Positions 1-64,000 of a stretch of DNA of 64,000 nt are shown piece by piece. The notes beneath the pieces were generated by a model. The model searched no databases. It was not told the DNA's origin and saw only the letters and a list, made by a program, of their open reading frames with translations. Source of the stretch: a virus; IMG/VR virus record IMGVR_UViG_3300023109_002988, positions 34,533-98,532 of that record. The stretch is one strand, 5' to 3'. The translations under genes were made by a program, and so were the position numbers. The stretch's first letter is position 1, and each line of letters opens with the position of its first letter.

Positions 1-1
1 A

Positions 2-22986: not shown

Positions 22987-22987
22987 A

Positions 22988-23638: not shown

Positions 23639-23643
23639 AAACA

Positions 23644-24336: not shown

Positions 24337-24340
24337 AATA

Positions 24341-24910
24341 ATGGCATACGGGAAAGAAAAAAAAACACACCTAGGTGGTTATATTATAAATATAACAGAT
24401 CACGGAGATCCTAATAGTTATGCTACCGAAGTCTGGGATGAAATGATCAGCGCTGGTATCAAATCTGTTTTAGATATAGGTTGTGGAGAAGGTCACTCCA
24501 CTAAATATTTTTTAAACAAAGGAATAAAGTGCATTGGCGTCGAAGGCGGAGAAATAGCGTATAACAACTCTCCAGTTAAAAACAATTTAGTTCTACACGA
24601 TTATACAGAAGGTCCTTTTGTGCCTATCGATAAATTTGATGCGGCTTGGTGTTGTGAATTTGTTGAACATGTAGATGAAAAATACTGTCAAAACTTTTTA
24701 GATAGCTTTTCCAAATGCGATTTCATATTTATGACACACGCAAACATTGGTCAAGAAGGCTATCATCATGTTAATTGTCAAAACTCTGAATATTGGATCG
24801 AAAAAATCGAAAAGATCGGGTTTCGTTTTTCTCCTGAAATGACAAATCACTATAAAAACTTTTCTCCACAATGTATGCATCTAAAAAACCTAATTGTATT
24901 TAAAAAATGA
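24341..24910 (+). CDS. SAM-dependent methyltransferase (class I)
   Basis: The 189-residue Rossmann methyltransferase has motif I SVLDIGCGEGHSTKYF (about 44-59), then an acidic strand end CIGVEGGE, and DAAWCCEFVEHV (motif IV region). It is similar to Methyltransf_11/23-type enzymes that modify sugars or lipids in polysaccharide clusters. The glycosyltransferase neighbours suggest O-methylation of a glycan, but the substrate is not shown. It overlaps the next gene by four bases. Confidence 0.8.
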   Translation: MAYGKEKKTHLGGYIINITDHGDPNSYATEVWDEMISAGIKSVLDIGCGEGHSTKYFLNKGIKCIGVEGGEIAYNNSPVKNNLVLHDYTEGPFVPIDKFDAAWCCEFVEHVDEKYCQNFLDSFSKCDFIFMTHANIGQEGYHHVNCQNSEYWIEKIEKIGFRFSPEMTNHYKNFSPQCMHLKNLIVFKK

Positions 24911-25419
24911 ATTTAGATACCGAAAGAATGACTGGCTTTGGTGCTTATAGCGTTGATGGATATGATGTGAATTATTTATTCGGTCTTCGGGATTTATGTG
25001 AAGATTTTCTATCTAATGAAAGTCATGTATTAGAGTTGGGTTGTAATGACGGAGTCAGTACAAGATTATTTTCTGAGTATGCCAATGAAGTTACAGCTGT
25101 TGACATCAACTTGACAAAAAAGTTCAAATCACTTTTAAATGATTCTGTTAATGTAAAATTTCACCATTTAGACTTCGATTTATTTTTTAAAAAAAATACC
25201 AATAAATATGATTTAATATATATAGACGGACCACATGATTACTCTTCAGTAAAAAGCCATATAGAAGATTGTAAAAAGATCATAAAAAAACACGGGGTGA
25301 TATGTGGTCACGATTACCACTCTAAAGTTGGTGTGATTGAAGCCGTTAACGAATCTTTTGGTAAAGAAAACATTAAAATTTACTCAGATAGTTCTTGGGC
25401 GGTAACGAATATAGTATGA
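24907..25419 (+). CDS. SAM-dependent methyltransferase (class I, MT_24-like)
   Basis: The 170-residue protein has motif I VLELGCNDGVSTRLFSE (about 41-57), the acidic AVDIN end of strand 2, and YDLIYIDGPHDYSSVKSHIE (about 100-119). It ends with GHDYHSKVGVIEAVNESF, a pattern of Methyltransf_24 enzymes from capsule and O-antigen clusters. It probably methylates a sugar of the product made by this cassette. The stop overlaps the start of the fucosyltransferase gene (ATGA). Confidence 0.8.
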   Translation: MNLDTERMTGFGAYSVDGYDVNYLFGLRDLCEDFLSNESHVLELGCNDGVSTRLFSEYANEVTAVDINLTKKFKSLLNDSVNVKFHHLDFDLFFKKNTNKYDLIYIDGPHDYSSVKSHIEDCKKIIKKHGVICGHDYHSKVGVIEAVNESFGKENIKIYSDSSWAVTNIV

Positions 25420-26186
25420 TAATTATTAAAATACATGGTGGTTTGTGTAACCAGCTTTTTCAGTGGGCTTATGGATATGCTTTATCAAAAGAGCATGAGG
25501 TTTATTTTGACACATCGTTTTTTAATAGTCAAGATATAATGTCTTCGGTATCTATCCGTGATTATGAATTACCCAATATAATCAACAGAGAAATACCAAT
25601 AGTTACAAAAGAAATCTTTGAGGATTTTTCATCTAAGAGCGTACAAATGGTTCTTGATAACTTTTACTACTCAAATATAAAATTCGAAAAAAATAAAAAT
25701 TATTATTTAAATGGATATTGGCAGTCGGATTTGTTTTTTAACAATGTGAAGCAGGAGATTGTTGATTCGTTTAAATTTCCAGAAGTTGAACATTTTGATT
25801 TTAAATACTCATGTTCAATACATATAAGAAGAGGGGATTATTTAAAGCTTAAAGGAATACATACACATCAGACTTTAGATTATTATGAGCAAGCTCTTGA
25901 TGTTATAAAACCTAAGGGTAAAGTGTTTGTTTTTTCTGATGATATAGAATGGTGTGAGAAAAATCTAAACTTCGAAAACCAGGTATTTATGAAAGGTAAT
26001 TCTAACGTTAAAGATCTTAGACTCATGAGTTTGTGTTCTAACAATATAATGGCTAACAGTAGCTTTAGTTGGTGGGGAGCTTATTTAAACAATAATCCAA
26101 ACAAAATTGTTGTCTGTCCTAAAAATTGGTTTGGTAACAATACCAATGACTCCGATATCAAAATGAAAGATTGGCTGGAAATATAG
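25416..26186 (+). CDS. Alpha-1,2-fucosyltransferase (GT11)
   Basis: The 256-residue product has the GT11 signatures: N-terminal IHGGLCNQLFQWAYGYALS, HIRRGDY (donor-binding motif I, near 137-143), FVFSDDIEWCEKNL, and CSNNIMANSSFSWWGAYLN near the C-terminus. GT11 enzymes, including bacterial FutC/WbnK and animal FUT1/2, add fucose in alpha-1,2 linkage to galactose. I use the ATG at 25416, which overlaps the upstream stop, rather than the in-frame ATG at 25395, since the family begins at this strand. With GT6 upstream and Gmd downstream it completes an ABO(H)-like enzyme set. Confidence 0.93.
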   Translation: MIIIKIHGGLCNQLFQWAYGYALSKEHEVYFDTSFFNSQDIMSSVSIRDYELPNIINREIPIVTKEIFEDFSSKSVQMVLDNFYYSNIKFEKNKNYYLNGYWQSDLFFNNVKQEIVDSFKFPEVEHFDFKYSCSIHIRRGDYLKLKGIHTHQTLDYYEQALDVIKPKGKVFVFSDDIEWCEKNLNFENQVFMKGNSNVKDLRLMSLCSNNIMANSSFSWWGAYLNNNPNKIVVCPKNWFGNNTNDSDIKMKDWLEI

Positions 26187-26200
26187 ATGATTTGTTTTAT

Positions 26201-26206
26201 TATATT
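26201..26206 (+). promoter_or_regulatory. -10-like box (TATATT) directly before gmd
   Basis: TATATT ends five bases before the gmd ATG, in the 25-base gap after the fucosyltransferase gene. No good -35 is seen. It fits the spacing seen at other unit starts in this window. Confidence 0.35.
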
Positions 26207-26211
26207 TTGAT

Positions 26212-27240
26212 ATGAGTAAAGTAATTATAACAGGAGTAACGGGACAAGATGGTAGCCACATGGTTGATTATTTATTGGCTAATACTGACATTGATGTAAT
26301 TGCTGGTGTTCGTAGGCTTTCGGTTAAAAATCACGAAAACATTAAACACTTGTCAGACAACTCGCGGTTTAAATTGATCGATCTTGATATCACAGACCAG
26401 TCAAATGTAGATCGTGTTATAGCTAAAGAAAAACCAGACTTCTTTATTAACTTTGCTGCCAATTCATTCGTAGGAGTTAGTTGGGATATGCCAGAAAACC
26501 ACATGAATACAAATTGCATGGCGGTTCTTTATCAATTGGAAGCTATACGCAAGCACTGTCCAGATTGCCGTTATTACAATGCTGGTTCATCCGAAGAGTT
26601 TGGTAACGTAGTTACTGTCCCACAGGACGAGACTCACCCACTGCGCCCTAGAAGCCCTTACGGAGCATCTAAAGCTGCTGCAAGACATCTAGTTAAAGTT
26701 TGGCGTGAAAGTTACAATTTATACGCTATTCAAGGTTGGCTATTTAATCACGAAGGAACAAGAAGGGGTGAGGAATTTCTTACCCGCAAAGTCACTAAAG
26801 GCGTCGCCAAAATTGTACAGCAGATCAGAGAGGGTAAAACGCCCACACCCATTGAGCTTGGCAATCTAGAAGCAAAAAGAGATTGGTCAGATGCAGAGGA
26901 TTTTGTGGATGGCATTTGGTTGATGCTTAACCAAGAAGAGCCGAAAGAATATGTATTAGCCTCTGGTGAGACATATACTATTCGTGAGTTCGTAGAGGCC
27001 GCTTTTGGCTTTGCTGGGTTTGGTGCAGAAGAGTGTCATTGGGATGGTCAAGGTGTTGACCAAAAATATATTCACGGAGATCAAGTGCTTGTAACAATTA
27101 ATCCAAAATACTATCGACCAGCTGAAGTTAACTTATTGCTTGGTGATCCTAGTCTTGCAGAAAAGGAAATGGGTTGGGTAAGAAAAACCGACTTTTATGG
27201 CTTAGTAAAAAAGATGGTTGACAAAGATATTAATCTTTGA
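26212..27240 (+). CDS. gmd: GDP-mannose 4,6-dehydratase
   Basis: The 342-residue short-chain dehydrogenase-type enzyme has the NADP-binding GVTGQDGSH (8-16), then NFAANSFVGVSW, the catalytic GSSEEFG, YGASKAA (Tyr/Lys pair), and LFNHEGTRRGEEFLTRK, which is diagnostic of Gmd. It converts GDP-mannose to GDP-4-keto-6-deoxymannose, the precursor of GDP-fucose, GDP-rhamnose and related sugars. The reductase step (Fcl/WcaG) is not in this window and may come from the host or elsewhere in the phage. Placement right after the GT11 gene argues that the final donor is GDP-fucose. Gmd is known in some cyanophages. Confidence 0.95.
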   Translation: MSKVIITGVTGQDGSHMVDYLLANTDIDVIAGVRRLSVKNHENIKHLSDNSRFKLIDLDITDQSNVDRVIAKEKPDFFINFAANSFVGVSWDMPENHMNTNCMAVLYQLEAIRKHCPDCRYYNAGSSEEFGNVVTVPQDETHPLRPRSPYGASKAAARHLVKVWRESYNLYAIQGWLFNHEGTRRGEEFLTRKVTKGVAKIVQQIREGKTPTPIELGNLEAKRDWSDAEDFVDGIWLMLNQEEPKEYVLASGETYTIREFVEAAFGFAGFGAEECHWDGQGVDQKYIHGDQVLVTINPKYYRPAEVNLLLGDPSLAEKEMGWVRKTDFYGLVKKMVDKDINL

Positions 27241-27252
27241 TACTATCAACCT

Positions 27253-27711
27253 ATGCCCAGAGGAAAGAAACAATGTCCCGAATGCTCTTTGGAGTTTGGG
27301 GCAAGAAAATCCGTGTGCGATTGCGGCTACATATTTTCTAAGGCGGTTAAGAAAACCCCTAAAATCAAAACAGAGAAGAAAATAAACAAGCGCGAAATAC
27401 TTTTTCGCCTTGTCGAAAAACCCAAGGAAAACAAAAGGTTTTTCTTCATGAGGGAAATGAAATTTCTCAACGACCTTAGTAGTCGTTATTCTCTTGAGTT
27501 TCTTGGTGTTGTCACTTTTCCTAAAAAGTTTAAGTCCCTAGCTTACTTGGTTAGCCCTAAACTAAAGGGTACCATGGATATAAAATGGAGAGCTTTCAAT
27601 TACAAGGTTGACAAAAGTAAATATGAAGAGTACAATATAGGAGAAAAGATTGGACAAGATATAAACATACCTAGGCAAATTAAAACAACAAAAGATTTTT
27701 TAAATGAGTGA
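27253..27711 (+). CDS. Zinc-ribbon hypothetical protein
   Basis: The 152-residue protein opens with a compact zinc ribbon, CPECSLEFGARKSVCDCGY (cysteines near 8, 11, 22 and 24). A lysine-rich linker follows, then a 90-residue domain (KKINKREILFRL…RFFFMREMKFLNDLSSRY) that I cannot place. Its stop overlaps the recA start by eight bases. It might be a nucleic-acid-binding accessory of recombination or replication, but that is inferred from position only. Confidence 0.55.
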   Translation: MPRGKKQCPECSLEFGARKSVCDCGYIFSKAVKKTPKIKTEKKINKREILFRLVEKPKENKRFFFMREMKFLNDLSSRYSLEFLGVVTFPKKFKSLAYLVSPKLKGTMDIKWRAFNYKVDKSKYEEYNIGEKIGQDINIPRQIKTTKDFLNE

Positions 27712-28822
27712 TACAACAAATTCAAGCAACCTATTGGAAAGCTTTCTGAAAGCTAATAAACAAGATCATTACAATTTCGAAGAAGAAATTGATTATAAAA
27801 TATCAAGCGGATCACTTCAATTTGATCTGCACCTTGGAGGAGGTTTTGGTCCTGGACTGCACCGATTCTGTGGAATGAATGAAGGCGGAAAAACCTCCGA
27901 AGCTTTAGAGGTTACTAAAAACTTTCTATTAACACTTCCTAATTCCAAGGGTGTTTATTTTAAAGCTGAAGGTCGACTTTCTCCAGAAATGAAAAAAAGA
28001 TCTGGTGTTAAGTTTGTAACTAAAACTGAAGATTGGGTCGAAGGCACTTGCTTTGTATTTGAATCAAACATTTACGAAACAGTCGTAGATCTAATGAGGC
28101 AATTGGTCTCAAACAACGATGAAAAAACCAAGTATTGTTTCCTCCTTGATTCTGTAGATGGTCTCATCCTAAGGAACGATGTAGACAAATCTTTTGAGGA
28201 TTCATCGAAGGTCGCTGGTGGCGCTGTTGTAGCGGGTACATTTATGAAGAAGATGTCAATTGCTCTAGCTAAAAGAGGACACATGGCAATATTTATATCG
28301 CAAGTCAGGGCTGACATTAAGTTGGATCCTTACAGTAAAGTTCCTATTAGACAAACAAGTGCAACTGGAGGTAATGCACTTCTTCACTTTGCTAATTGGA
28401 TTATTGAGTTTGAGGCTAGATATAATAAAGACATGATTCTTAAGAACCCATCCATTAAGAAAATGGACGCTCAAAAGAATCCAGCAGTTGGTCATTATGC
28501 AAGTGTAACAATTAAAAAGTCTCCTAATGAAAAAACCAATACAAGACTAACATATCCTGTTCGTTACGGCAGGACAGCTGGAACATCTATTTGGATCGAG
28601 AAAGAAATAGTTGACCTGTTATTTGCTTGGGAATTTCTAGTTAAAAAAGGTTCGTGGATTAAGACTACGGAAGACTTCGTGGAACTTCTTTCTGAGAATA
28701 GTCTTGAGTTCCCAGAAAAAATCCAGGGCGAATCTAATGTATTTAAAGCTATTGAGAATGATGGTGATCTCTCTGCTTTTCTTGTTGACTACTTCAAAAA
28801 AGCTATAGGTGAATTAACATGA
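27704..28822 (+). CDS. RecA/UvsX-family recombinase
   Basis: The 372-residue protein follows the RecA core order. It has SGSLQFDLHLGGGFGPG before the P-loop GMNEGGKTS (57-65), the catalytic glutamate in YFKAEGRLSP, CFLLDSVDGL (Walker B), then IFISQVRADI and ATGGNALLHFANWII (loop L2 region, compare TTGGNALKFYA in RecA). It would coat ssDNA and catalyse strand exchange for phage recombination-dependent replication and repair. The P-loop departs from the bacterial GPESSGKTT. The C-terminal 60 residues replace the RecA C-domain. It sits at the head of the replication operon and overlaps the next gene by four bases. Confidence 0.88.
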   Translation: MSDTTNSSNLLESFLKANKQDHYNFEEEIDYKISSGSLQFDLHLGGGFGPGLHRFCGMNEGGKTSEALEVTKNFLLTLPNSKGVYFKAEGRLSPEMKKRSGVKFVTKTEDWVEGTCFVFESNIYETVVDLMRQLVSNNDEKTKYCFLLDSVDGLILRNDVDKSFEDSSKVAGGAVVAGTFMKKMSIALAKRGHMAIFISQVRADIKLDPYSKVPIRQTSATGGNALLHFANWIIEFEARYNKDMILKNPSIKKMDAQKNPAVGHYASVTIKKSPNEKTNTRLTYPVRYGRTAGTSIWIEKEIVDLLFAWEFLVKKGSWIKTTEDFVELLSENSLEFPEKIQGESNVFKAIENDGDLSAFLVDYFKKAIGELT

Positions 28823-47391: not shown

Positions 47392-50300
47392 TTAATTTAT
47401 TATTATGCCATCTAAAACAGCGCCTTCTATTACGGTATCTTCTTGAAGAGAGTCTATATTTAGGTTTGTATAGTATATTGGTGAATCAAGATAATGAGTA
47501 TAATAATCATTATTATCGAATTCAGCTCCAAGAGCTTGTAGTGATAATCTATACTGACCATTAGCGGTTATCTCTTCGAAATCAAAAGAAGTTTCTTGCG
47601 TATCGTAGTATGTATAATCCAATTCAAATGCAGGTCTAATACCTAATCTATATCCTGTAGCATTTTTAACATTTCTCCAAGTTCCTTCTATGGTCACGGT
47701 TGTGTTGCCGCCTAGAACAGATATATTTCTGGCTGTCCACGTAACCCTATCTGGGGTGTTTAATGTAAAGTATTTAGATTGATCTACTTGGTAATCTTCT
47801 GAGTAAGGGTTTACATAAACACTTTGATCTGAAAAGTTTGTTTCTTCTATTTCTCTATACTTTCCGCTTTTGTATTGACTCGCTATAACCTCATATGAAT
47901 GAGAATCTTCTTCGTTAATTGTTGTGACCTTATAAACCCTATCTGATGTGTCTTTTCTTTTAAATCTATATATGGATCCTTTTGGAATCAATGGTGTAAA
48001 AATTGAGCTTTCATCGTTTTGGTCTACATATAAGGTATAACCAATGCTATCTTCATTAGCTGCTACTCCAGAAGCTATTTTTATATCTTTTATTTGTTTT
48101 GTTTCGTTGATTTTGATGTCATCATCTACTATAGCCCCTTGTGTTTCTCTAAGGTCTAGCCATTTATCGGAAAGATTAAAACTTTCTGCCGTGTTTCTTC
48201 CGTCTCCTACTGTAGTGAATCTATACCAATTATAATTTAGGTCGCTATTATCATAGTCTGCGAAGTCATCCGCCCACTCTCCGTTTGTTTCTCCACTGGT
48301 TGCTGATATATATTTGTCGTAAGTAGTGCTGTGTGTAAAAGCTTCTCCTGTAGAGAATACCCAGCCAGTGTATTGAGTAGAATACCATAAGAAGTGTTTT
48401 GTGCCGTTTTCCTCTCCAGTGTAAAACGGATATTCATCTCTTAATACTTTTGTATTTAAACCCTCAAGTTTTTTGTCTCTAAATCCTTCTTGGTATGAAT
48501 CAAATTCATAGTAACCATCTAATCTTTTGCCTTCAAAAGCAGACGGGGTGTTAAATAAAGTAAAGAAATCGTGTCTTGATCTATCTTGCAAAAGTATTTC
48601 TTCAATGTCTTCTATCTGTTGTGTTCCAGTTGGTATGTATACAGTAAGATAGCCCTCAAAATTATCATCATCATAAAAATCAGATATCCTTATTGAATTA
48701 TTTTCTTGGTTCACACCTAAAACTCTTCCAAAATTACTTGTTAGTGTTTTTAGCTCATCCTCAATAATTATCAAGTCGCCAGGTCTTACAAGTATTCCTT
48801 CTAGCCCCGTAGAAAATGAAACATTTTCGTTTTCTTGTGTCGCTTTATAAAGAAGGTGGCTTCCGAACCTCCTTGCTTGTGCTCTAGATGTAACGCCGAA
48901 AGCGTCTATTTTTGTTTTAATTATACCTCTTTCTCTTATATCTTGTTCGTTTTCTAGATACTCTACTTTTGGTTGGTAATCATCTTCTGCATCATTATAG
49001 CCCACTTCTAGAGCATTGTATTGTTCGTCTTTAAGAAGCGCTGAGTAATTAAATACTCCTTCGACCACATTCGTGTTGTTGAAAACCATTACTGGTTCTT
49101 TTATCCTATCATCAGAAAAAGAAACGACTGAATCCGTAAAATAAAACAGTCCTTTAAAGTTGCTGGCTACAAGGTTCAAGGCATCGAATACTTTTATATC
49201 TCTTTGAAATAAAGTGTTGCATGTGTATCTTGGTTGTCTCCCACCCTTTGCTGCATTTACTTGTACTATATTATCAGAAACCCCTTCGAAGTAACCATTT
49301 ACGTCAACTGCATCGCAAAATCTACCTATTTTATATAGTTGCCATTTGTTTATTTGATTCTGCTCTATTAAGTCTCCTAGACCTATTTGATAGTCAGTCA
49401 AAAGATCATAAAGTATCCATGCTGGATTGTCTGTCCATCCTAGTTTAAATGTACCATCCCAGTCTCCATCGTAAACTCTTGTTTGGTCTGATTTACCAGC
49501 ATTCTCAAGATCTTCAGCACTTAGCCAATATCTTTTGTCTGTACCTCCAGGGTTTAATGGCGTATAATTAGAAGGTATTTTCACCTTTTTCATCCTAACG
49601 TCATATGACCTTGATGGTATTTCTCCGAAAGTTCTTGAATCTAATTTTGTACCCACTAAAGCTGAAAAGGGGTAGTTCAAGGTTCTTGGTACGATCTCCG
49701 TAACCTTTGCAAGGTTTGCTGTTTTTTGAATTAGAGTCGAGTTAGATTCTGTAGATAGTTTAGTTACTTTTATATACCTTTCTCGGAAAATTTGCTCAAA
49801 TCCATATTTTTGACTTACTTGTGGGTCTGGCAACTCGAATGACTCAATAACAGATCCGCTGAATTCAGACTCGTTGCCATTTTTATCGTTGTATAATTGT
49901 TTTACATAACTTAATTGAGACTTATTATTAATATTGTCTGGGTTGCCAATATCTACAGCTGCTCCACCTTCGATCAAAGATAGGACCCTGAAAAAACGAT
50001 CATATGACTTCACAAATTGTCCCTTTGCACTTGAGTTTTGTGGCGCTATGTAACCAACCTCCACCCTAAAGTTTACAATTGTGGGCATCTTGGACCCGAC
50101 TATTTTACTTTTATCCCAACTTTTTTCATCTACATGAATAGTGTCCCATAATCCCTCTATATTCAAAGTTATATAACAGGATTCAACGTTTGGGTTGTAT
50201 ATAACGTGGGTGACTGGCTGTGCTTTTTCGTTATAGTCTTGTTTAAAGCTGTTCCAATCTGAAAAATTGAATGATCTAAATCCAAGGTGCTGTGGTGAAG

Positions 50301-52239
50301 AAGGTCTTTTGTCGCTACTGCCCTCTTCTACGGCCAGTAGCCATTCATTCTCTCCAGTCTCCAAATTAATCGCCATCTTTGGTATTGTATTTGGCTCTGG
50401 AATACCTTTTCGTCCATCTGAATTACTCCTTGAGTTCTGCTCGCTTACAATTAAAGATCTCTGCCTTGGGTTGCCGTCCTTGTCTGTTTTATTACCGTCT
50501 GCATCAAAATTCCACAAAGACTGCATTCTCCTGTTTAAGTCTACATTAAAAGGGCCTAATAATCTTTTTTGTATATCTCTATCTAAATATATATTTTTAA
50601 AGAAACTCAGTGGCGTTTGTTGGTTGGGTCCTGATCCATCTCTATATTCAGCTAATACATTTAGAAAATTGTATTTTGTTGATCCTCCTCCAGTGATTTT
50701 AGGCATCTTAAAAACTCCAAGGCCTGTTACTTTATTGTAAAACTCAATTTCAGAATTAAGCATTGCGAAGCACTTTAATTGCCCTTCTGCTACCACTTTA
50801 GTGCTGGAGTTCACAGACGCTTTCGTTAATTCTCCGACTTTACTTTTGACCTCGGTGTTAATAAAATTCAAATAAAAACCTTTGATCTTTCCGTTCCATT
50901 TCCCTGTTTGGCTATCTAATACAGGTATCAACATATTTATAGAGTTTTTGTCTCTTGAGTACCAATCGTAATTGCCGCTATATTCCTCTAATATAAAATC
51001 AAGTTCGTTGGTTAGTGGCGTTCCATCTAATTCATTTGTGAATTCGTACTCATTAGCAGAAGTGTAACCGTCTAGTACATAACTAGAATCGTATTTAAAG
51101 GCTATGTAGGGCTTTGCTAATTCTTGCTGTGAAGTTGCATTGGAATTTTGTATTTCAAAGTCGGAGGCTCTTCCAAATTTATTTTTTACTTGTGTTATAA
51201 AGCTGGCCGAATTAAAGTTTCCAGAAGAAAGCTTAAACCCATAAGCCTCTAGTTTTTTCTTTAGATATTCCCACTCATAAGTGTTACCACGTTTATTGGC
51301 ATTTATATTTATAAGATCACTCAACCCAGTTCTAGCTACGGAATTACGCTGGATTTCTTTTCCTCCTTGTGTATATGGTTGCACACAAGTCGTATTTCCA
51401 TAACTATAAGGACTACAAACTCCATGTGAAAAAAACGATTTCCAAGTTCTAAATATTTCATCTTCAATATGAGACCATGATGGAGAATACTCCATAATTA
51501 GGGTTGGGTTTTTTATGCTTCCATCTATTAACGCTCTATAAGGACAGCTTTCATTATAAAATTTCTGACCTTGGGTAAGTGGCCACTCATACCTACCGCC
51601 TTGTGATGAGGATTTTGTCCACCTTTGATCTCCATATTTTTTAATCCCTAAGCTTTTGGTTTTTTCTTGTTTTCCTTTGTGGTAGTTCACCAAATTTGCT
51701 CTCACCCAATAAGACATTGGTTTCGAATTAGAAAAAGACAATCCAGATACACTTAATAAATTAAGATTAAAATAATATGTTTCATACTCTAGTATATTGT
51801 TGTACTTTCCATATCTATTCTTAACAACGCTCATAGTTGTTTCAAATGCCTGTTGTCTTCTTGGATTTTCGTAACTTAAAGATGTTATTTTTGCTATTTC
51901 CTTCAATCTAGCTATAATATCAGTCTCTACATCATGTCCCTCAAAAGACGATTCGCCTACTCTTATTTTCTCTGAAGAAACCGACTGCTCTATAGGCACA
52001 CCATTTAAATAAATGCCCTGCAACAACTGGCTGTTGTCGAGTCTAGACCCAAACCTATTGCAAAGTCCGTCTATTGGTCCTTGACATATTAAATCTACTG
52101 CTTCCGAAAACTGATAAGAAGCTCCTAGCTTATAAGAACCAACTCTTGGAGGTGTCAATACTGGTGGTTTCGGAGGAGGTGGTTTGCCACCGCCTTTTTT
52201 TGATCCAGCGTAAGTGAATTTTTTATTTAAATGTTTCAT
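47392..52239 (-). CDS. Tail tip protein J-like (host specificity / central fibre)
   Basis: The 1615-residue protein has the J N-terminal pattern: SYQFSEAVDLICQGPIDGLC and LLQGIYLNGVPIE (compare SvSEGPIeGl and iyLdgTPv in lambda J). Further on it shows QYNALEVGYNDAEDDYQPKV, then SRAQARRFGSHLLYKA, and LEGILVRPGDLIIIEDE, which are J/TipJ hub-domain hallmarks. The C-terminal 150 residues look like fibronectin-type modules (RVTWTARNISVLGG…, WRNVKNATGYRLGIRP). It forms the central hub and tip and usually binds the receptor. It is about 480 residues longer than lambda J; the extra length lies in residues 130-700. Pro-rich KPPPPKPP is near the N-terminus. Confidence 0.9.
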   Translation of the reverse strand: MKHLNKKFTYAGSKKGGGKPPPPKPPVLTPPRVGSYKLGASYQFSEAVDLICQGPIDGLCNRFGSRLDNSQLLQGIYLNGVPIEQSVSSEKIRVGESSFEGHDVETDIIARLKEIAKITSLSYENPRRQQAFETTMSVVKNRYGKYNNILEYETYYFNLNLLSVSGLSFSNSKPMSYWVRANLVNYHKGKQEKTKSLGIKKYGDQRWTKSSSQGGRYEWPLTQGQKFYNESCPYRALIDGSIKNPTLIMEYSPSWSHIEDEIFRTWKSFFSHGVCSPYSYGNTTCVQPYTQGGKEIQRNSVARTGLSDLININANKRGNTYEWEYLKKKLEAYGFKLSSGNFNSASFITQVKNKFGRASDFEIQNSNATSQQELAKPYIAFKYDSSYVLDGYTSANEYEFTNELDGTPLTNELDFILEEYSGNYDWYSRDKNSINMLIPVLDSQTGKWNGKIKGFYLNFINTEVKSKVGELTKASVNSSTKVVAEGQLKCFAMLNSEIEFYNKVTGLGVFKMPKITGGGSTKYNFLNVLAEYRDGSGPNQQTPLSFFKNIYLDRDIQKRLLGPFNVDLNRRMQSLWNFDADGNKTDKDGNPRQRSLIVSEQNSRSNSDGRKGIPEPNTIPKMAINLETGENEWLLAVEEGSSDKRPSSPQHLGFRSFNFSDWNSFKQDYNEKAQPVTHVIYNPNVESCYITLNIEGLWDTIHVDEKSWDKSKIVGSKMPTIVNFRVEVGYIAPQNSSAKGQFVKSYDRFFRVLSLIEGGAAVDIGNPDNINNKSQLSYVKQLYNDKNGNESEFSGSVIESFELPDPQVSQKYGFEQIFRERYIKVTKLSTESNSTLIQKTANLAKVTEIVPRTLNYPFSALVGTKLDSRTFGEIPSRSYDVRMKKVKIPSNYTPLNPGGTDKRYWLSAEDLENAGKSDQTRVYDGDWDGTFKLGWTDNPAWILYDLLTDYQIGLGDLIEQNQINKWQLYKIGRFCDAVDVNGYFEGVSDNIVQVNAAKGGRQPRYTCNTLFQRDIKVFDALNLVASNFKGLFYFTDSVVSFSDDRIKEPVMVFNNTNVVEGVFNYSALLKDEQYNALEVGYNDAEDDYQPKVEYLENEQDIRERGIIKTKIDAFGVTSRAQARRFGSHLLYKATQENENVSFSTGLEGILVRPGDLIIIEDELKTLTSNFGRVLGVNQENNSIRISDFYDDDNFEGYLTVYIPTGTQQIEDIEEILLQDRSRHDFFTLFNTPSAFEGKRLDGYYEFDSYQEGFRDKKLEGLNTKVLRDEYPFYTGEENGTKHFLWYSTQYTGWVFSTGEAFTHSTTYDKYISATSGETNGEWADDFADYDNSDLNYNWYRFTTVGDGRNTAESFNLSDKWLDLRETQGAIVDDDIKINETKQIKDIKIASGVAANEDSIGYTLYVDQNDESSIFTPLIPKGSIYRFKRKDTSDRVYKVTTINEEDSHSYEVIASQYKSGKYREIEETNFSDQSVYVNPYSEDYQVDQSKYFTLNTPDRVTWTARNISVLGGNTTVTIEGTWRNVKNATGYRLGIRPAFELDYTYYDTQETSFDFEEITANGQYRLSLQALGAEFDNNDYYTHYLDSPIYYTNLNIDSLQEDTVIEGAVLDGIIIN

Positions 52240-57364: not shown

Positions 57365-57613
57365 ATGTCAACTTCAACACAATCAAGTCTTTTAAAGCAA
57401 GTAGGTCATTATGGTGGTGAGAGGGTTACTGATAGCACTGTAAACGGAAAGTTTATGGCTATTCATGCCCTCACCGAATGTGTAATCGGCCCTGCAACAG
57501 TAGGTAGCATATCAGGTTTTGTAGGAGCTACGCTTCCTCTTGGTGATGTAATTGTGGGCCGCTGGTCTTCATTAGAAATCTCTGGCGATGCTATCGTTTA
57601 TTACGAAGATTAA
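57365..57613 (+). CDS. Small putative virion-associated protein
   Basis: The 82-residue protein starts STSTQSSLLKQVGHYGGERV and ends GRWSSLEISGDAIVYYED. The pattern 'GRF.si.l.sG.viaY' at the C-terminus is common in small phage proteins encoded beside tail-fibre genes, thought to be virion components. Low charge and glycine-rich loops (GFVGATLPLGDVIVG) fit that view. The start follows a 25-base gap after the previous gene. Confidence 0.5.
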   Translation: MSTSTQSSLLKQVGHYGGERVTDSTVNGKFMAIHALTECVIGPATVGSISGFVGATLPLGDVIVGRWSSLEISGDAIVYYED

Positions 57614-58066: not shown

Positions 58067-58876
58067 ATGGCACTCAATACTTTCATACCTACAAGCGGAT
58101 CAACTCACTTAACGTTCCGCAATAATTACAATACAAATATCACAGAGATCGAGACTCGAATATCTGGTCTTGAGGTTTTTAGTGGGGATTTATCACAATA
58201 CTCCTTAACTGGTCATCAGCACGTAGTTGATGACGTTTCTGGTCTTGGGACAATGGCTACCGAAAGTAGTGGTGATTATTCTCCAACTGGTCATACTCAC
58301 TCTGAATACGCTGCTACAAGCCATACTCACTCTGAATACGCTGCTACAAGCCATACTCACTCTGAATACGCTGCTACAAGCCATACTCACACTGTAACAG
58401 ATATTAATTCTGCTGTTGCCCCAAGTGGTTATGTTATTACCGCAGATGGTGGTGGAAATTCAACCTGGGAAGAATCTCAGGGCGGTGGTGGGTCCGCTAA
58501 ATTTAGCGTTGTTACTGTAACTACTGCAACTTATACCCAAATCCCACAACACACTCATCACCTTTATGACGATACAGGTCTTGGTGGTGGAGAAAGCGGT
58601 AGTGGTAGCGGTAGCGGTAGTGGTAGCGGTAGTGGTAGTGGTAGTGGCGGCGCAGAACCTTGTATTGTTGTTGATCTTCTCGACCCAACATTACATGAAG
58701 CTATAACTGTTCACAAAAAGATAGGTAACGATTGCGATGTTTTGCTTCTTCCTCCTAGTGGTTGCACTATTGACGGTGTTGTAAGTGATGGATTGGTTAG
58801 TGGATACAATCTTTCCAGCCAGAATGAATCTATTTCAATATTCAGCGATGGTGTATCTGGATACTACATACAATAA
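58067..58876 (+). CDS. Tail fibre protein with GHTH repeats and Ser-Gly linker
   Basis: The 269-residue protein begins ALNTFIPTSGSTHLTFRNNY, a typical phage fibre N-terminus. Residues about 48-108 hold GH.H and SHTH units with the 10-residue repeat SEYAATSHTH, as in T4 gp37, where such HxH motifs bind metal along trimeric fibres. A Ser-Gly linker (177-195) joins a C-terminal domain (AEPCIVVDLLDPTLHEAITV…SGYYIQ). It is coupled by TAATG to the first LRR fibre gene. Likely a trimeric side fibre or collar component. Confidence 0.8.
   Translation: MALNTFIPTSGSTHLTFRNNYNTNITEIETRISGLEVFSGDLSQYSLTGHQHVVDDVSGLGTMATESSGDYSPTGHTHSEYAATSHTHSEYAATSHTHSEYAATSHTHTVTDINSAVAPSGYVITADGGGNSTWEESQGGGGSAKFSVVTVTTATYTQIPQHTHHLYDDTGLGGGESGSGSGSGSGSGSGSGSGGAEPCIVVDLLDPTLHEAITVHKKIGNDCDVLLLPPSGCTIDGVVSDGLVSGYNLSSQNESISIFSDGVSGYYIQ
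58292..58390 (+). repeat. Three perfect 30-bp coding repeats (SHTHSEYAAT)
   Basis: A 30-base unit starting CATACTCACTCTGAATAC occurs three times in a row and starts a fourth time. It encodes (S/G)HTHSEYAAT. The perfect DNA identity suggests repeat-number slippage. There are no spacers, so it is not a CRISPR. Confidence 0.9.
58595..58651 (+). repeat. Ser-Gly codon repeat (AGYGGT)n
   Basis: About nine consecutive AGCGGT/AGTGGT hexamers encode a flexible (SG)n linker between the repeat and C-terminal domains of the fibre. The length is likely to vary between isolates. Confidence 0.85.
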
Positions 58877-59661
58877 TGAGTCACAGTCCTAAATCTCCAC
58901 CTTTAGCAAAAGCAACCGCTGATCTTCCAGATGTTGAAGACGGTGTGTTGGCTTATGATACCACACAGGGGAAGCCAGTAGCTAGATTAGCTGGTGTTTG
59001 GTCTGAGATCGCTGGCGAGGTTTTTGGAACACCTACTGTAGTATATGATGATGGTGCTGGTATTGGTAATACAGACCAAATCCAAGGTGATATACCATAC
59101 AGCTGGAAAAGATATGACACATCTTTAAAAGGATTGGTTATTGGAAATTCTTGCACTAGAATTCCAAAATTTGCTTTTGAAGGTTGCACTGGCTTGACTG
59201 GTTCTTTAGTCATCCCAGATAGTGTTACTTATATTAATGACAATGCTTTTGCTTTCTGTCAAGGTTTTGACGGGCGATTAACTCTTAGTGACAACCTCCT
59301 TAGAATTGGATATCAAGCTTTTAGATCAAATTCATCGTCGCAGATGATTTATACTGGAGAACTTATTGTTAATGCTGAAATATTAGGCGGTCAATGCTTC
59401 TATGGATTAGGTATAACGAATTTAACAATAGGGGAAAAATTAAAAACTATAGAAGGAAATTCTAACTTTTCGTATTGCATGAACTTGACTAATGCAAATT
59501 GTTACGTTACAAAAGACGTAATAGACCAAGAAAGCGCTGGCATGTTTGAACTTACTTCACTCTCGACATTCCACGTTCGTTCTACCGACAACACTTGGAC
59601 AGCTGGTCCTAATCAGACTATTGGGTTAAAAACAGGTGTCCTCGTAATTAAAGATTTATAA
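58876..59661 (+). CDS. LRR tail-fibre protein, paralogue 1
   Basis: The 261-residue protein has a conserved N-terminal module (SHSPKSPPLAKATADLPDVE…AYDTTQGKPVARLAGVW), a bridge (DQIQGDIPYSWKRYDTSLKG), then about five BspA-type LRRs (AFEGCTGLTGSLVIPDSVTY…). The conserved C-terminal cap is TFHVRSTDNTWTAG…VLVIKDL. The 60262 and 61070 proteins share both ends but have different LRR cores. The N-module resembles phage tail proteins that attach to fibres or collars. The LRR cores are probably the exchangeable binding part. It links to the two giant LRR proteins at the window start. Confidence 0.8.
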   Translation: MSHSPKSPPLAKATADLPDVEDGVLAYDTTQGKPVARLAGVWSEIAGEVFGTPTVVYDDGAGIGNTDQIQGDIPYSWKRYDTSLKGLVIGNSCTRIPKFAFEGCTGLTGSLVIPDSVTYINDNAFAFCQGFDGRLTLSDNLLRIGYQAFRSNSSSQMIYTGELIVNAEILGGQCFYGLGITNLTIGEKLKTIEGNSNFSYCMNLTNANCYVTKDVIDQESAGMFELTSLSTFHVRSTDNTWTAGPNQTIGLKTGVLVIKDL

Positions 59662-59675
59662 TATAAAAAAACAAA

Positions 59676-60260
59676 ATGAAATACGCAATAACAGACGAAA
59701 GAGGTCACATTTACGAAGTTCAAGACACCGAACCAACCGAAGAACAGTTGGGTGGTTATCTTGTTTCTCATGAAATTTCTGATGAAGATGCGGCTACTGT
59801 TGAGGCTAGTTCTGAAAGGATGTGGTATATTGGTGGTGTTCTTTACGACTTCGATGGATATATCTATCGCAGTAAAAGAGACTACATGAATGAGAAGATT
59901 GATAGAGACTTCAGTGGCGACATTGATGGCGCTAAGAATCTTCTTAGAGATCACTTTTCAGAGAAGAGATACGATGTAGAAGTTGGCGGTCTTGATATGG
60001 GTGGGCTTGCAGTTAGAACTGACAGGCATACAGTTTCTAGAATTTATCAAGCAGAATCACTGACTACAGCTGACCCCACTTTCACTACAGATTGGAAGCT
60101 TGGTAATGGATCATTCATTACTATTGACGCAACTTTAATCGGTCAACTTTCGGCAGCAATCACAGCACACATTCAATCTTCATTTGCTCAAGAGAAAGCA
60201 GTAAACTCATCTATCGATGCAGCCACCACTATTGACGAGCTTAAATCTATAGAATGGTAA
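59676..60260 (+). CDS. DUF4376-domain tail-fibre-linked protein
   Basis: The 194-residue protein has an N-terminal part (KYAITDERGHIYEVQDTEPT…) and a C-terminal DUF4376-like domain from about 110: RYDVEVGGLDMGGLAVRTDR, then SLTTADPTFTTDWKLGNGSF and QLSAAITAHIQSSFAQEKAV, with DELKSIEW at the end. DUF4376 is common next to phage fibre genes, often in fibre-assembly proteins. It sits between LRR fibre paralogues 1 and 2 and may assist them. A chaperone role is inferred. Confidence 0.8.
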   Translation: MKYAITDERGHIYEVQDTEPTEEQLGGYLVSHEISDEDAATVEASSERMWYIGGVLYDFDGYIYRSKRDYMNEKIDRDFSGDIDGAKNLLRDHFSEKRYDVEVGGLDMGGLAVRTDRHTVSRIYQAESLTTADPTFTTDWKLGNGSFITIDATLIGQLSAAITAHIQSSFAQEKAVNSSIDAATTIDELKSIEW

Positions 60261-60261
60261 T

Positions 60262-61068
60262 ATGAGTCACACCTCAAATAATCCTCCAGTAAAATACGCA
60301 GCCTCAGATCTTCCTAATGATCTGGCAGAAGGAACTGTTGCTTATGATACAACCAATCAAAAGATGGTTGCTTTTAAGCAGGGTGCTTGGGGAGATTTGG
60401 GTGGCGCTGGTGGAATAGGAAGTACAACATATGTTAGAGGTAATGCGGCTGGGGTGATTGACCAAATCAAAGGTGATATACCAGCAGAATGGAAACGCAG
60501 CGACAATTCTTTGCGTGGTTTGGTTATTGGTACTAGCTGTAAAGCAATTGGCAAAAGAGCTTTTCAGTCTGTTGTTTATTTGAGAGGGCGAATTGTAATT
60601 CCAGGTAGCGTTAAAACTATTGCGTTTAACGCTTTTAGTAATACTGCCATTGATGAACTTCATCTAGAGCCTGGATTGGAATATATAGGTTCAAATTGTT
60701 TTTACAACAACGGTAATTTAATTAATAATTTAATACTTCCAGATGGATTAAAAGAGATTGCTTCGATAGCTTTTGGCTCCACTGGTATTTCGTATCTTAA
60801 AATACCACCAAGTGTCAATAAACTGAATTTTTCTGAGCCTGGCTGGGCTGGCGGTGGTTATCAAGGTTCTTTTGCGGGAATGTATCTTTTAACTAGGGTT
60901 GATTGCTATGTCACTAAAAACATCATTGATATGAATGAAGGTCGCTGTTTTGCTGGTTGTGACAGCCTCACCGAAATACATGTTCGCTCTACCGACAGCA
61001 CTTGGACAGCTGGTTCTGGTCAAACCGTCGGAGGAAAGACAGGCATCACAGTAATTAAAGATTTATAA
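60262..61068 (+). CDS. LRR tail-fibre protein, paralogue 2
   Basis: The 268-residue paralogue of the 58876 and 61070 proteins has the same N-terminal module (SHTSNNPPVKYAASDLPNDL…AYDTTNQKMVAFKQGAW), bridge (DQIKGDIPAEWKRSDNSLRG), then LRRs (AFQSVVYLRGRIVIPGSVKT…) and the cap EIHVRSTDSTWTAG…ITVIKDL. An insertion before the cap (NFSEPGWAGGGYQGSFAGMY) is unique to it. It starts one base after the DUF4376 gene. Likely a fibre or receptor-binding subunit. Confidence 0.8.
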   Translation: MSHTSNNPPVKYAASDLPNDLAEGTVAYDTTNQKMVAFKQGAWGDLGGAGGIGSTTYVRGNAAGVIDQIKGDIPAEWKRSDNSLRGLVIGTSCKAIGKRAFQSVVYLRGRIVIPGSVKTIAFNAFSNTAIDELHLEPGLEYIGSNCFYNNGNLINNLILPDGLKEIASIAFGSTGISYLKIPPSVNKLNFSEPGWAGGGYQGSFAGMYLLTRVDCYVTKNIIDMNEGRCFAGCDSLTEIHVRSTDSTWTAGSGQTVGGKTGITVIKDL

Positions 61069-61069
61069 T

Positions 61070-61705
61070 ATGTCGCACACATCTAAATTCCCACCATTAA
61101 AATACACTACCGCAACTCTTCCCACGGATTTGCCAGTGGGTACTGTTTCTCTTGACACTACCACAAACGAGCATAAATCTTTTAACGGATCATCGTGGGA
61201 TGCTATAGAAGGAGGTGGTGACATTGGAACTGCAACTATTGTTTTTGATTCTACTGGTCCAGCTTATGATCAAATCGCAGGAGATATACCAGATAATTGG
61301 AAGAAGACTGACTCATCTTTAAAAGGATTGGTTATTGGAACGAGTTGTGCGACTATTGGTGACCTTGCCTTTTTTAATTGCACTGGCTTAGTTGGTTCTT
61401 TAGTGATCCCAGATAGCGTGATAACTATTGGTGAAAGTGCTTTTGATTCTTTGTGGGGCTTAACTGGACCTTTAACTATTGGCTCTGGTGTTGAGGAAGT
61501 CGGTGATCTTGCTTTTTTTGATTGTAATTACACAGAAATTAATTGCTATATTACTAGAGATGTTTTAAACAAAGCAAAGTCCCCTGTTACAAATAACAAA
61601 ACTATTCATGTAAGATCAGACGATAATACATGGACAGCTGGTTCTAGTCAAACTCTAGGCACAACTTGGATAAACACTGGTCTTACTGTAATTAAAGATT
61701 TATAG
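61070..61705 (+). CDS. LRR tail-fibre protein, paralogue 3
   Basis: This is the shortest of the set (211 residues). It has the N-module SHTSKFPPLKYTTATLPTDL…SLDTTTNEHKSFNGSSW, bridge DQIAGDIPDNWKKTDSSLKG, about three LRRs (AFFNCTGLVGSLVIPDSVIT…) and the cap TIHVRSDDNTWTAG…LTVIKDL. Nucleotide identity with paralogue 1 is high in the bridge-LRR stretch (TTTAAAAGGATTGGTTATTG in both), suggesting recombination among copies. It follows paralogue 2 by one base. Confidence 0.8.
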   Translation: MSHTSKFPPLKYTTATLPTDLPVGTVSLDTTTNEHKSFNGSSWDAIEGGGDIGTATIVFDSTGPAYDQIAGDIPDNWKKTDSSLKGLVIGTSCATIGDLAFFNCTGLVGSLVIPDSVITIGESAFDSLWGLTGPLTIGSGVEEVGDLAFFDCNYTEINCYITRDVLNKAKSPVTNNKTIHVRSDDNTWTAGSSQTLGTTWINTGLTVIKDL

Positions 61706-61706
61706 G

Positions 61707-61735
61707 TTGAAAAAACCCAATAGTTTCATTATAAT
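61707..61735 (+). promoter_or_regulatory. Promoter (TTGAAA-N17-TATAAT) before the sulfotransferase gene
   Basis: TTGAAA at 61707-61712 and TATAAT at 61730-61735 are 17 bases apart. The ATG at 61741 is five bases after the -10, giving a leaderless transcript. This is the best case of that spacing on the plus strand outside the PHP gene. Confidence 0.65.
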
Positions 61736-61740
61736 GATTG

Positions 61741-63468
61741 ATGAATGAAGCTAAAAAACTACCAGTATTTTTTCACATTCCTAAGAATGCTGGAACTTAT
61801 GTTTACAACGTTTCGTTTCGTTTAATCAGCTCTAAACTTGATATCGGGGGCAGGTTGTATAACCTTCAAGTACAAAAGGGTGACCGTATAGTATATCGTT
61901 TGATTTGCTCTGCTAAAAATGGACTAAGCGACAAATATAAACTCATGAACAATGCGGGTTGGGTCGTTGTTCAGTACGATGATTTGAATTTAGATGATCT
62001 TAATCTGTATTTTGTGGAGGTATGTTCTTCTAGTTTTGGTTGTTATAAAGAAGAAGTGTATGGTAACCTGCCAAACGATACGGATCCTTATGAATTCCTG
62101 ATACTAAGAGAACCTTACAGTAGAATCTTGTCCATCTATAGCTATTTAACATCTCCTCAATCAGCGCATGAATTAACGAGCGGTTCTTTTGGAGATAAAA
62201 CATTTATAGAATATCTCAACTCAGATCAACTTGAGAATTCTTGGTTGATTAAATCTTTCTTGAACATACCTCATGATACCATAATAAATGAAGATCACTA
62301 TAGAGCTACCTGTGATATACTTGATGATATGTTTGTTTCTGACATGAGCGATACAGATCTTTGTCTTTCTAATGTATTTAACAAATGCTATGGTTTTAAG
62401 AATATAGATATACCAAACCAAAAGATACACTCTAATAAAACCAGCAAAAAAACAGAACAGCCGTTCAAAACTTTGGACAAACCCACGAAGATGCACTTTA
62501 GCAATCAAACAAAATGGGACAGATTGCTTTATGAAAAGTTTGCCAACAAGAAAATCATAGATAAAAAACAAACGAAAGGTAAGGTGATAAACTGCTTTTA
62601 TGAAGGTTCAAATGGCGGCTTTGGAGATTTCTTAAGGGGTTCTGTCAACTTATTTAACCACTGCATGAGTAAGGGGCGTGATTTTGATATAAATATAAAT
62701 AAACACCCAATTAAAAAATACTTCAAACCATCAGAAAGTATTCATGAACAATTTGATATAGATGATCTGGCTTTAAAAGCTGAAGGCATAAAGCACTTCA
62801 TACACTCTTTAAAAAAACTAACGCAAAACTGTATAATCTCAACCAAACAGCAAGAAACAAAATACATTTTTTCAAATTATCACCCATGCTTAACAGATGC
62901 CCGTGATATCATAAATTATTTGAATTTAATGCCACCGATTAACAATCGATGTTGTTCTTTTTTACAGAACAAGTTGCAGTTTTCTGGTGAGGTTAACGAT
63001 TCTGTTAGTAGTAAACTCAAGGAAGAGAGTTTGGAAGCAGGTAAGTTTAACATCATCCACTTTAGATTGGGAGATCAAAACAGTTTTTCTAATCATGGTA
63101 AAAATTTAGAAGAATTACACAAAGAATGTTTTGCTAAATGCTTCCTAAAATCAAATGAGGACGACAAGCCTATAATAGTTTTATCAGACTCAAACGATCT
63201 AAAAAAATACTTAAAAGAAAACAACAAATCATTACCAATTCACACCCTTCATTTACAAAGCAACCATATGCAAAGCAAGCCTTCTGGGTTTTCTGGTAAA
63301 ATTGAAACTACTGATCAGGGTGTTTTCCATGCTGTTTTTGATATGAAACTAATAACATTGGCAAATTCTGTGGAGTCGTATAGTGTATACAACCACGGAT
63401 CTGGTTTTGTTTATTGGATTGCTAAGATCTTTGGTGTTCCAGTCAAACTTAATTTAATTAAGCATTAA
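61741..63468 (+). CDS. Sulfotransferase-glycosyltransferase fusion
   Basis: From the ATG at 61741 the product has 575 residues. The N-terminal part begins KLPVFFHIPKNAGTYVYNVS, the PAPS 5'-phosphosulfate-binding motif of carbohydrate sulfotransferases (HIPKNAGT), with ILREPYSRILSIYSYLTSPQ as the 3'-phosphate-binding region. The C-terminal part (from about 280) has CFYEGSNGGFGDFLRGSVNL, IIHFRLGDQNSF and DMKLITLANSVESYSVYNHG followed by SGFVYWIAKIFGVPV. This pattern resembles fucosyltransferases and related GT-B enzymes (H.R.GD…d..lla.a...i.s.SgF). It may add both sulfate and a sugar to one glycan. PAPS would come from the host. A TTG three bases upstream is a less likely start. Confidence 0.7.
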   Translation: MNEAKKLPVFFHIPKNAGTYVYNVSFRLISSKLDIGGRLYNLQVQKGDRIVYRLICSAKNGLSDKYKLMNNAGWVVVQYDDLNLDDLNLYFVEVCSSSFGCYKEEVYGNLPNDTDPYEFLILREPYSRILSIYSYLTSPQSAHELTSGSFGDKTFIEYLNSDQLENSWLIKSFLNIPHDTIINEDHYRATCDILDDMFVSDMSDTDLCLSNVFNKCYGFKNIDIPNQKIHSNKTSKKTEQPFKTLDKPTKMHFSNQTKWDRLLYEKFANKKIIDKKQTKGKVINCFYEGSNGGFGDFLRGSVNLFNHCMSKGRDFDININKHPIKKYFKPSESIHEQFDIDDLALKAEGIKHFIHSLKKLTQNCIISTKQQETKYIFSNYHPCLTDARDIINYLNLMPPINNRCCSFLQNKLQFSGEVNDSVSSKLKEESLEAGKFNIIHFRLGDQNSFSNHGKNLEELHKECFAKCFLKSNEDDKPIIVLSDSNDLKKYLKENNKSLPIHTLHLQSNHMQSKPSGFSGKIETTDQGVFHAVFDMKLITLANSVESYSVYNHGSGFVYWIAKIFGVPVKLNLIKH

Positions 63469-63472
63469 ATAT

Positions 63473-64000
63473 ATGAGTTTTAAATACGGAAAAGATTTAA
63501 AAACATCTATATTAATTGTAACTTATGACAAGGATCTAGAATTTCTTAAGTATAGTTTAAAATCAATATCTAAGTTTTGCCGTCTTTATAATGAGGTTGT
63601 TGTCGTTATAGATGACCACGAAAATGATTGTGTGGAAACTAAAAAATATCTTGAATCTATTGGGCAGAAATACTTTATAAACAAAGAAGCCAAACATATA
63701 ACTAGAGGCTATATCAGGCAGCAATATATAAAACTATATTCTGAAAAATATTTTGACGAAAAAACTGATTTTGTGTGCCACTTAGACTCAGATAATATAT
63801 TTAATGAACTTAATTCGCCTGATGTTTTCTTTAAAGGGTGTAAACCTGTAATTGGTATGCAAAAGTGGGCTGAAATGCCTAATAATAATTTTGAGGAAAG
63901 CACTAACAAAACAGTTGGATTTGATGTCGATTATAATTTCATGAGAAGAATGCCATTGGTTTACCCAAGGTGTATTTTTAAAGAGCTAAGGGAATTTATT
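63473..64000 (+). CDS. Glycosyltransferase, DUF6492/GT2-like (3' end cut by window)
   Basis: The frame is open from the ATG at 63473 to the right edge (176 codons seen). It starts MSFKYGKDLKTSILIVTYDK, then LEFLKYSLKSISKFCRLYNE and VVVVIDDHENDC, a GT-A first domain. TRGYIRQQYIKLYSEKYFDE and HLDSDNIF (metal-binding DSD) follow. This order is that of DUF6492-type glycosyltransferases. It starts five bases after the sulfotransferase-GT stop, so the two probably act on the same glycan. The C-terminus is not visible. Confidence 0.75.
   Translation, partial: MSFKYGKDLKTSILIVTYDKDLEFLKYSLKSISKFCRLYNEVVVVIDDHENDCVETKKYLESIGQKYFINKEAKHITRGYIRQQYIKLYSEKYFDEKTDFVCHLDSDNIFNELNSPDVFFKGCKPVIGMQKWAEMPNNNFEESTNKTVGFDVDYNFMRRMPLVYPRCIFKELREFI

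Follow-up and report, generated by a model that had tools for sequence, protein, structure and literature searches.

The window (the whole stretch of DNA that was analysed, 64,000 nucleotides) comprises bases 34533–98532 of a linear 98.5-kb IMG/VR record. The source is an uncultured tailed phage with a lambda-like tail, and the structural genes of the record are of the siphovirus type. The record encodes a terminase-like protein, a 3351-aa protein whose position and length suggest a tape measure, and a 615-aa gpM-like minor tail protein (phrog_14) that is fused to leucine-rich repeats (LRRs). L-, K/I- and J-like tail-tip genes lie on the minus strand at 47.4–55.7 kb, the LRR genes described here are on the strand opposite to the J-like group. 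DnaB, Pol III alpha and ribonucleotide reductase are also encoded, and glycosyltransferase/GDP-mannose dehydratase genes are present. The features of the window are collected in Table 1.

Table 1. Coordinates of the LRR fibre genes, their parts and other features in the window
Feature	Coordinates	Strand	Remarks
Giant LRR protein, 4393 aa	1..9139	+	starts upstream of the window, G000:30490; not an exchange partner here
Second giant LRR protein, 1569 aa	9142..13851	+	putatively tail-tube-like N-domain
RecA-like recombinase	27704..28822	+	PF00154, E 3e-9
Lambda J-like central tail fibre (host-specificity protein)	47392..52239	-	phrog_31, E 8e-114; upstream of the array
82-aa conserved hallmark gene	57365..57613	+	upstream of the array; anchor for finding relatives
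Fibre-like gene, HTH-repeat/Gly-Ser-rich middle, conserved ends	58067..58876	+	directly upstream of the array; syntenic in relatives
LRR fibre gene, position 1	58876..59661	+	261 aa; LRR_5, E 1.8e-25
Position 1 parts	N-module ~58876-59073; bridge ~59074-59133; LRR core and cap ~59134-59661	+	
Bridge/LRR N-cap DQIQGDIPYSWKRYDTSLKG of position 1	59074..59133	+	breakpoint zone
DUF4376/tail-fibre-type protein	59676..60260	+	PF14301, E 6e-14; phrog_10508 tail fiber protein, E 4e-21
LRR fibre gene, position 2	60262..61068	+	268 aa; LRR_5, E 8.5e-20
Bridge, position 2	60454..60519	+	
LRR fibre gene, position 3	61070..61705	+	211 aa; LRR_5, E 9.1e-17
Bridge, position 3	61262..61327	+	breakpoint zone
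Exchange tract, position 3 core and cap	61268..61716	+	~87-88% identical to the position 1 core of phage D (L014:8046-8494)

In the following, W denotes the window phage and A–Q its relatives, the digit gives the position in the array (W3 is position 3 of the window). All sequences compared are metagenomic assemblies. The DUF4376 gene separates LRR positions 1 and 2 in the window. The array genes score 61.6–89.7 bits against the LRR_5 profile, for which the curated cut-off is 27.7, and their self-matches have a 72-bp spacing, which corresponds to one LRR per ~24 residues. In AlphaFold2 models (pTM 0.77 and 0.83) the LRR part folds confidently into a solenoid, with a pLDDT mostly above 90 in the model of L017:9231-10313; the N-module is modelled with low confidence (pLDDT mostly <70 or <50).

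A preliminary description of this DNA proposed that the three genes are paralogues with variable middles between constant ends. A three-way alignment bears out the relationship: the proteins have a common MSH..PP..LP N-module, DQI.GDIP..WK bridge and HVRS.D.TWTAG..VIKDL cap, and the cores between these invariant blocks are poorly alignable. Bridge and cap are 76–79% identical between W1 and W2, and the bridge, which serves the LRR domain as its N-cap, is 70–79% identical between the window positions. The N-terminal end is indeed constant. The C-terminal end is not, the cap is of several types among the relatives (VIKDL, WTNYPNIP and VVYDL) and moves with the core. From its conservation, the N-module would plug the protein into a particular tail site, and the LRR core with its cap is presumed to be the host-binding part. 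No receptor function for the LRR part emerged from its PHROG, Pfam or PDB relatives. The array stands in a tail-gene context, with its DUF4376 tail-fibre gene and the lambda J-, I/K- and L-like genes nearby, and its proteins would be located on the virion and bind a host receptor.

The array has the order LRR1, DUF4376 gene, LRR2, LRR3 and sometimes LRR4. Its synteny extends to 10 other independent IMG/VR lineages (B, C, D, E, F, G, I, J, K and M), which have the complete array, and it is partly visible in three more (A, N and O), where it is cut by contig ends. The DUF4376 gene lies between positions 1 and 2 in every relative that shows both. Phages P and Q have instead a single 568-aa LRR protein with a different N-domain. 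The N-modules fall into two classes, MSH.. and MSQ/MSK.., and within both there are subtypes specific to a position. Among annotated phages W2 had no match by tblastn, and the core of a relative drew generic LRR matches only. None of four tested proteins matched in PADLOC. No LRR array was found in the genome contigs that were searched for a host. The 82-aa hallmark gene matches one Lokiarchaeota MAG contig with the same J/tail gene order; this contig was rejected as a host clue and taken for viral DNA that had been binned in error, since the Pol III alpha and DnaB of the window phage are of the bacterial type.

The N-modules are bound to their position and the cores are not. In the MSH clade the best match of the N-module is at the same position in another phage for 13 of 13 genes, the corresponding counts are 5 of 13 for the core (first 60 core residues) and 4 of 13 for the cap region (last 75 residues). 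N-module identity is 0.79 within the same position versus 0.48 between different positions. The same-minus-different identity is 0.30 for the N-module (permutation p 0.0015), 0.02 for the first 60 core residues (p 0.26) and 0.004 for the last 75 residues (p 0.42). In the second clade (MSK) 21 of 27 N-modules have their best match at the same position, and a weak position effect persists for the cores (p 0.01–0.02). The maximum likelihood (ML) tree of the N-modules has two position-label changes, which is the minimum, and the core ML tree has six, where shuffled labels give a mean of 6.6.

Cores have been exchanged between positions and between phages. The tract common to W3 and D1 starts in the bridge and ends ~11 nt beyond the stop codon, the C-cap therefore belongs to the cassette. 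The N-modules of W3 and D1 are 54% identical in nucleotides and the shared core and cap 88%, and the D1 N-module is 97% identical to that of W1. Synonymous divergence (dS) for W1/D1 is 0.04 in the N-module and 1.13 in the core, for W3/D1 it is 1.08 in the N-module and 0.16 in the core. Pairs between B and C have a dS of 0.04–0.24 before the bridge and 0.38–1.36 after it. The unswapped control is W2/D2, an orthologue pair that is 95.5% identical in nucleotides throughout, with a dS of 0.02 and then 0.05. In the quartet W1, D1, W3 and D3 the N-module sites favour W1 with D1 and W3 with D3 by 90:0; in the core the ratio is 2:34, and 34 of 40 core sites favour W3 with D1 (Fisher p ~1e-28 for the contrast between N-module and core sites). 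The breakpoint falls at aa 71–98, at the bridge. A core clade of W3 and D1 has a support of 100/100 in the ML tree, a core clade of W1 and D1 is rejected (AU p 5e-4), as is an N-module clade of W3 and D1 (AU p 8e-6). A second swap links C3, at position 3 of an MSH phage, with K2, at position 2 of an MSK phage, their core and cap are 91% identical over 456 bp reaching the stop codon. Homogenisation within a phage is also seen (K2 with K3 and M2 with M3, p 8e-15), and the number of repeats grows and shrinks within cores. The earlier suggestion that cores are swapped or expanded between attachment ends is thus supported by the dS breaks, the position matching of N-modules versus cores, the quartet sites and the ML trees. 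Fixed, syntenic orthologues that are free of recombination tracts are found at position 2 (W2/D2) and not at positions 1 and 3.

The core dS of 0.16 for W3/D1 is higher than the dS of 0.02–0.05 for W2/D2, so W3 and D1 probably took their cores from a common pool, and a direct transfer from one of the two genomes to the other is less likely.

The variation within the cores is concentrated in five residues per 24-aa repeat, in the motif xxAFxxCx. Across 122 array repeats residues 1, 2, 5, 6 and 8 of SYAFYYCSGLTGSLTIPDSVTSIG have an entropy of 2.8–3.2 bits, and the remaining positions have at most 1.64 bits. In the AlphaFold2 model of the L017 protein the first variable octet lies in a loop between strands. 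Six closely related tracts were compared (I3/J3, W2/D2, W3/D1, I1/J1, C3/K2 and E1/K1). Nonsynonymous change was found in 33 of 110 hypervariable codons versus 62 of 806 other core codons, and synonymous change was about equal (5 of 110 versus 55 of 806). At the hypervariable codons pN is ~0.57, which exceeds a pS of ~0.2–0.5. The 20 hypervariable codons of the unswapped W2/D2 pair have nine nonsynonymous changes and one synonymous change. The hypervariable codons have the form NNT, with bases 1 and 2 near-random (1.76 and 1.64 bits) and T as the third base in 87%, where codon usage predicts 53%. The repeats are not mutually independent, and z-values computed from them are therefore uncalibrated. 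Third-base T is near expectation in most giant LRR genes (56–69%) and reaches 89% in the large LRR gene of phage G. In our reading, diversifying selection acts on a pool of repeats whose similarity is maintained by recombination; the hypervariable residues are probably the contact surface.

We therefore consider it very probable that LRR adhesin genes with position-specific N-modules stand here in a tandem array, that core and cap are reassorted by homologous recombination, and that the five hypervariable residues, probably the contact surface, diversify fastest. The N-module of each gene would dock the protein at its own tail site, and the core and cap segments reassort between positions and phages. 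Crossovers fall at one end in the bridge or the first LRR and at the other in the cap or a little beyond the stop codon, and repeats are also won and lost inside cores. The bridge, the 72-bp repeats and the cap would supply the homology. The RecA-like protein of the phage and host enzymes are candidate drivers. Ordinary homologous recombination between phages and paralogues is the most likely machinery, and a change of host range would be the selective reason for exchange. Such LEGO-like exchange of tips probably varies what the virus can bind.

Near-identical strains from different samples (C/C2, the copies of B, I/I2, P/P2 and O/O2) have 0–1 differences within the LRR genes, the swaps are therefore historical and accumulate over evolution. 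Core exchange is an evolutionary reassortment and not a demonstrated switch. A dedicated diversification system would be a viral analogue of the lamprey VLRs, the ends of which are fixed, and would act by frequent gene conversion between repeats or positions or by targeted NNT mutagenesis; one phage population would then show many LRR adhesin combinations, and we hold this to be very unlikely. Programmed site-specific switching, by an invertase or shufflon, or dedicated gene conversion like that of VLRs could account for tandem cassettes with common ends and for the constant and variable LRR modules. It is made highly improbable by several observations: neither a tyrosine (PF00589) nor a serine (PF00239) recombinase domain was found in the record, all array genes are on the plus strand, independent near-identical strains agree in their arrangement, no silent cassette store was found, and the breakpoints are spread across bridge and repeats rather than placed at one short site.

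Strong diversifying selection might also have driven the paralogues apart in place, with conserved N- and C-terminal parts that mimic cassettes, and the nonsynonymous excess at hypervariable residues even in the unswapped W2/D2 pair agrees with this. However, the bridge marks a ~25-fold jump in synonymous divergence, and cores and N-modules have conflicting phylogenies; selection on amino acids can cause neither. Divergence in place is contradicted for positions 1 and 3 and may describe position 2, as an account of the array we give it very little credence.

The repeat family of the array fills the giant LRR genes too, as stated in the preliminary description, which added that cores may be exchanged with them. 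The 98.5-kb record contains 52 matches to LRR_5, and besides the array three large genes carry them (~615, 4393 and 1569 aa). The N-domain of the 1569-aa giant has a 373-aa paralogue at another place in the record, with 52% identity, and the 4393-aa giant is a more distant relative of it; the paralogues had no match in PHROGs, and the domain may be tail-tube-like. The GDIPxxW bridge also stands ahead of the LRRs in the 615-aa and 4393-aa proteins, bridge and LRR therefore form a general module on several tail proteins. The common LRR_5 family and bridge would suit exchange of cores mainly with the giants, as would three tracts of 82–99 bp with ~87% identity between the large LRR gene of phage G and the cores of other relatives. 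These were the only such tracts, and none involves W or D: among the giants examined, none has a tract of at least 80 bp and 85% identity in common with a window core. W and D have colinear giants that diverge slowly, with 86.8% identity over 6468 bp, and the giants as main partners are scarcely credible.

Least credible of all is a diversity-generating retroelement that hypermutates the cores via reverse transcription of a template repeat: the NNT pattern at hypervariable codons resembles AAT-to-NNT mutagenesis, but a reverse transcriptase was sought and no RVT_1 domain (PF00078) was found in the 98.5-kb record or in those of eight relatives (all of these records may be incomplete), the conserved codons TTA, ATT, GAT, AGT and ACG are full of adenine yet not randomly variable, synonymous divergence is the same at hypervariable and conserved codons (~0.2–0.5 at both), and no template repeat was noticed in a DNA self-search with one array gene, which matched other array genes only.

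The reassorting LRR array resembles several known systems. The gp38 tail-tip adhesins of T-even phages have constant and hypervariable regions (PMC12892980). They are distal adhesins, as the array proteins would be, and in both conserved scaffold segments alternate with hypervariable ones (PMC12892980). However, gp38 is a polyglycine-II sandwich with loops whereas the array proteins are LRR solenoids, and here there are three to four tandem paralogues and whole solenoids are exchanged between positions.

One study describes related phages that have a near-identical N-terminal tail-binding part and a replaced C-terminal receptor-binding part (PMC10684548). The array shares with this mosaicism of receptor-binding proteins a fixed N-terminal module and a C-terminal module that is exchanged in relatives. 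In that study the C-terminal domain is replaced by a non-homologous one, whereas here homologous LRR cores are permuted among the paralogues of one locus; the text of the study makes no mention of LRR proteins.

Lamprey VLRs are assembled somatically from genomic cassettes by a deaminase-linked mechanism resembling gene conversion (PMC6995607, PMC3900441). The logic is convergent in that LRR modules are exchanged between ends in both (PMC6995607, PMC3900441). In contrast to VLRs the exchange here is evolutionary, homologous recombination is its probable route, and no homology is claimed beyond the type of LRR fold.

The array proteins belong to the same family as the BspA-type LRR proteins (Pfam LRR_5; PDB 4gt6, 4fs7 and 6mlx) by sequence, and weakly by predicted fold. 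The known BspA-type structures are cell-surface, hypothetical or spirochaete proteins, whereas the array proteins are encoded in a phage tail locus and have N-modules of their own.

Mosaicism of receptor-binding proteins is already known, the position-locked LRR chassis looks like a new form of it. What sets the array apart is the LRR solenoid, paralogues that stand in tandem and are each locked to a position, and homologous cores that are permuted among these positions. No description of an LRR tail-fibre array was recognised in the titles, abstracts and passages searched, which cover the literature in part. The array would be an unusually legible case of such mosaicism, with several homologous LRR adhesins per phage and tips from a pool common to positions and phages. 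Its hypervariable residues mark the likely binding face, which is directly testable, and its logic converges on that of the lamprey LRR antibodies. With its defined splice points the array also offers a natural library of LRR domains.

The locus itself appears to move between phage backbones. Where W and D can be aligned they are 85–91% identical in the block at 58.4–63.5 kb and 74–77% identical upstream of it, this higher identity of the block suggests that the locus is mobile.

The region around the array of tandem LRR tail-fibre genes (window 58387-63474) is 85-91% identical to that of relative D (locus L014) over the aligning parts, whereas the genes upstream of the array are only 74-77% identical to their counterparts in D. 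On these identities, phages with diverged backbones seem to have exchanged the entire locus. Relatives have extra genes inserted after the array and before the conserved 61738 gene; these are by eye sulfotransferase-like and methyltransferase-like and are missing from the window and from D.

The fibre-like gene directly upstream of the array looks mosaic in its own right. Both this gene and the syntenic genes of relatives combine conserved ends with a variable middle that holds HTHSEYAAT repeats, Gly-Ser runs and longer inserts. Relative D carries an additional related copy upstream.

A giant LRR gene contains a tandemly duplicated segment of about 0.8 kb (copies 89% identical, period about 693 bp), which argues that the giants enlarge through local duplication. 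The N-domains of the giants are homologous to those of two smaller paralogues, with 52% identity in the case of the 1569-aa giant (window 9142-13851) and about 27% in that of the 4393-aa giant (window 1-9139). Judged by context these paralogues look like tail-tube proteins, if they are, very large LRR solenoids would decorate the tail.

The 82-aa hallmark gene (window 57365-57613) is present in 25 viral loci. It also occurs, with the same tail gene order, on one Candidatus Lokiarchaeota MAG contig (L074), which is probably a mis-binned virus contig; an archaeal host is the less likely reading.

The window also encodes a glycosyltransferase cluster, possibly modifying surface glycans or glycosylating tail proteins.

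Coordinates of features (G000, whole record; L010, L012 and L013, loci of relatives)
Feature	Location	Detail
Fibre-like gene	window 58067-58876	
Inserted genes	L010:10868-11665; L012/L013:10691-12238	
Duplicated segment copies	window about 1436-2247 and about 2129-2937	giant LRR gene
Smaller paralogues of giant N-domains	G000:11268-12389 and G000:12415-13563	
Glycosyltransferase cluster	window 21545-27240	families 2, 6, 11, with GDP-mannose 4,6-dehydratase
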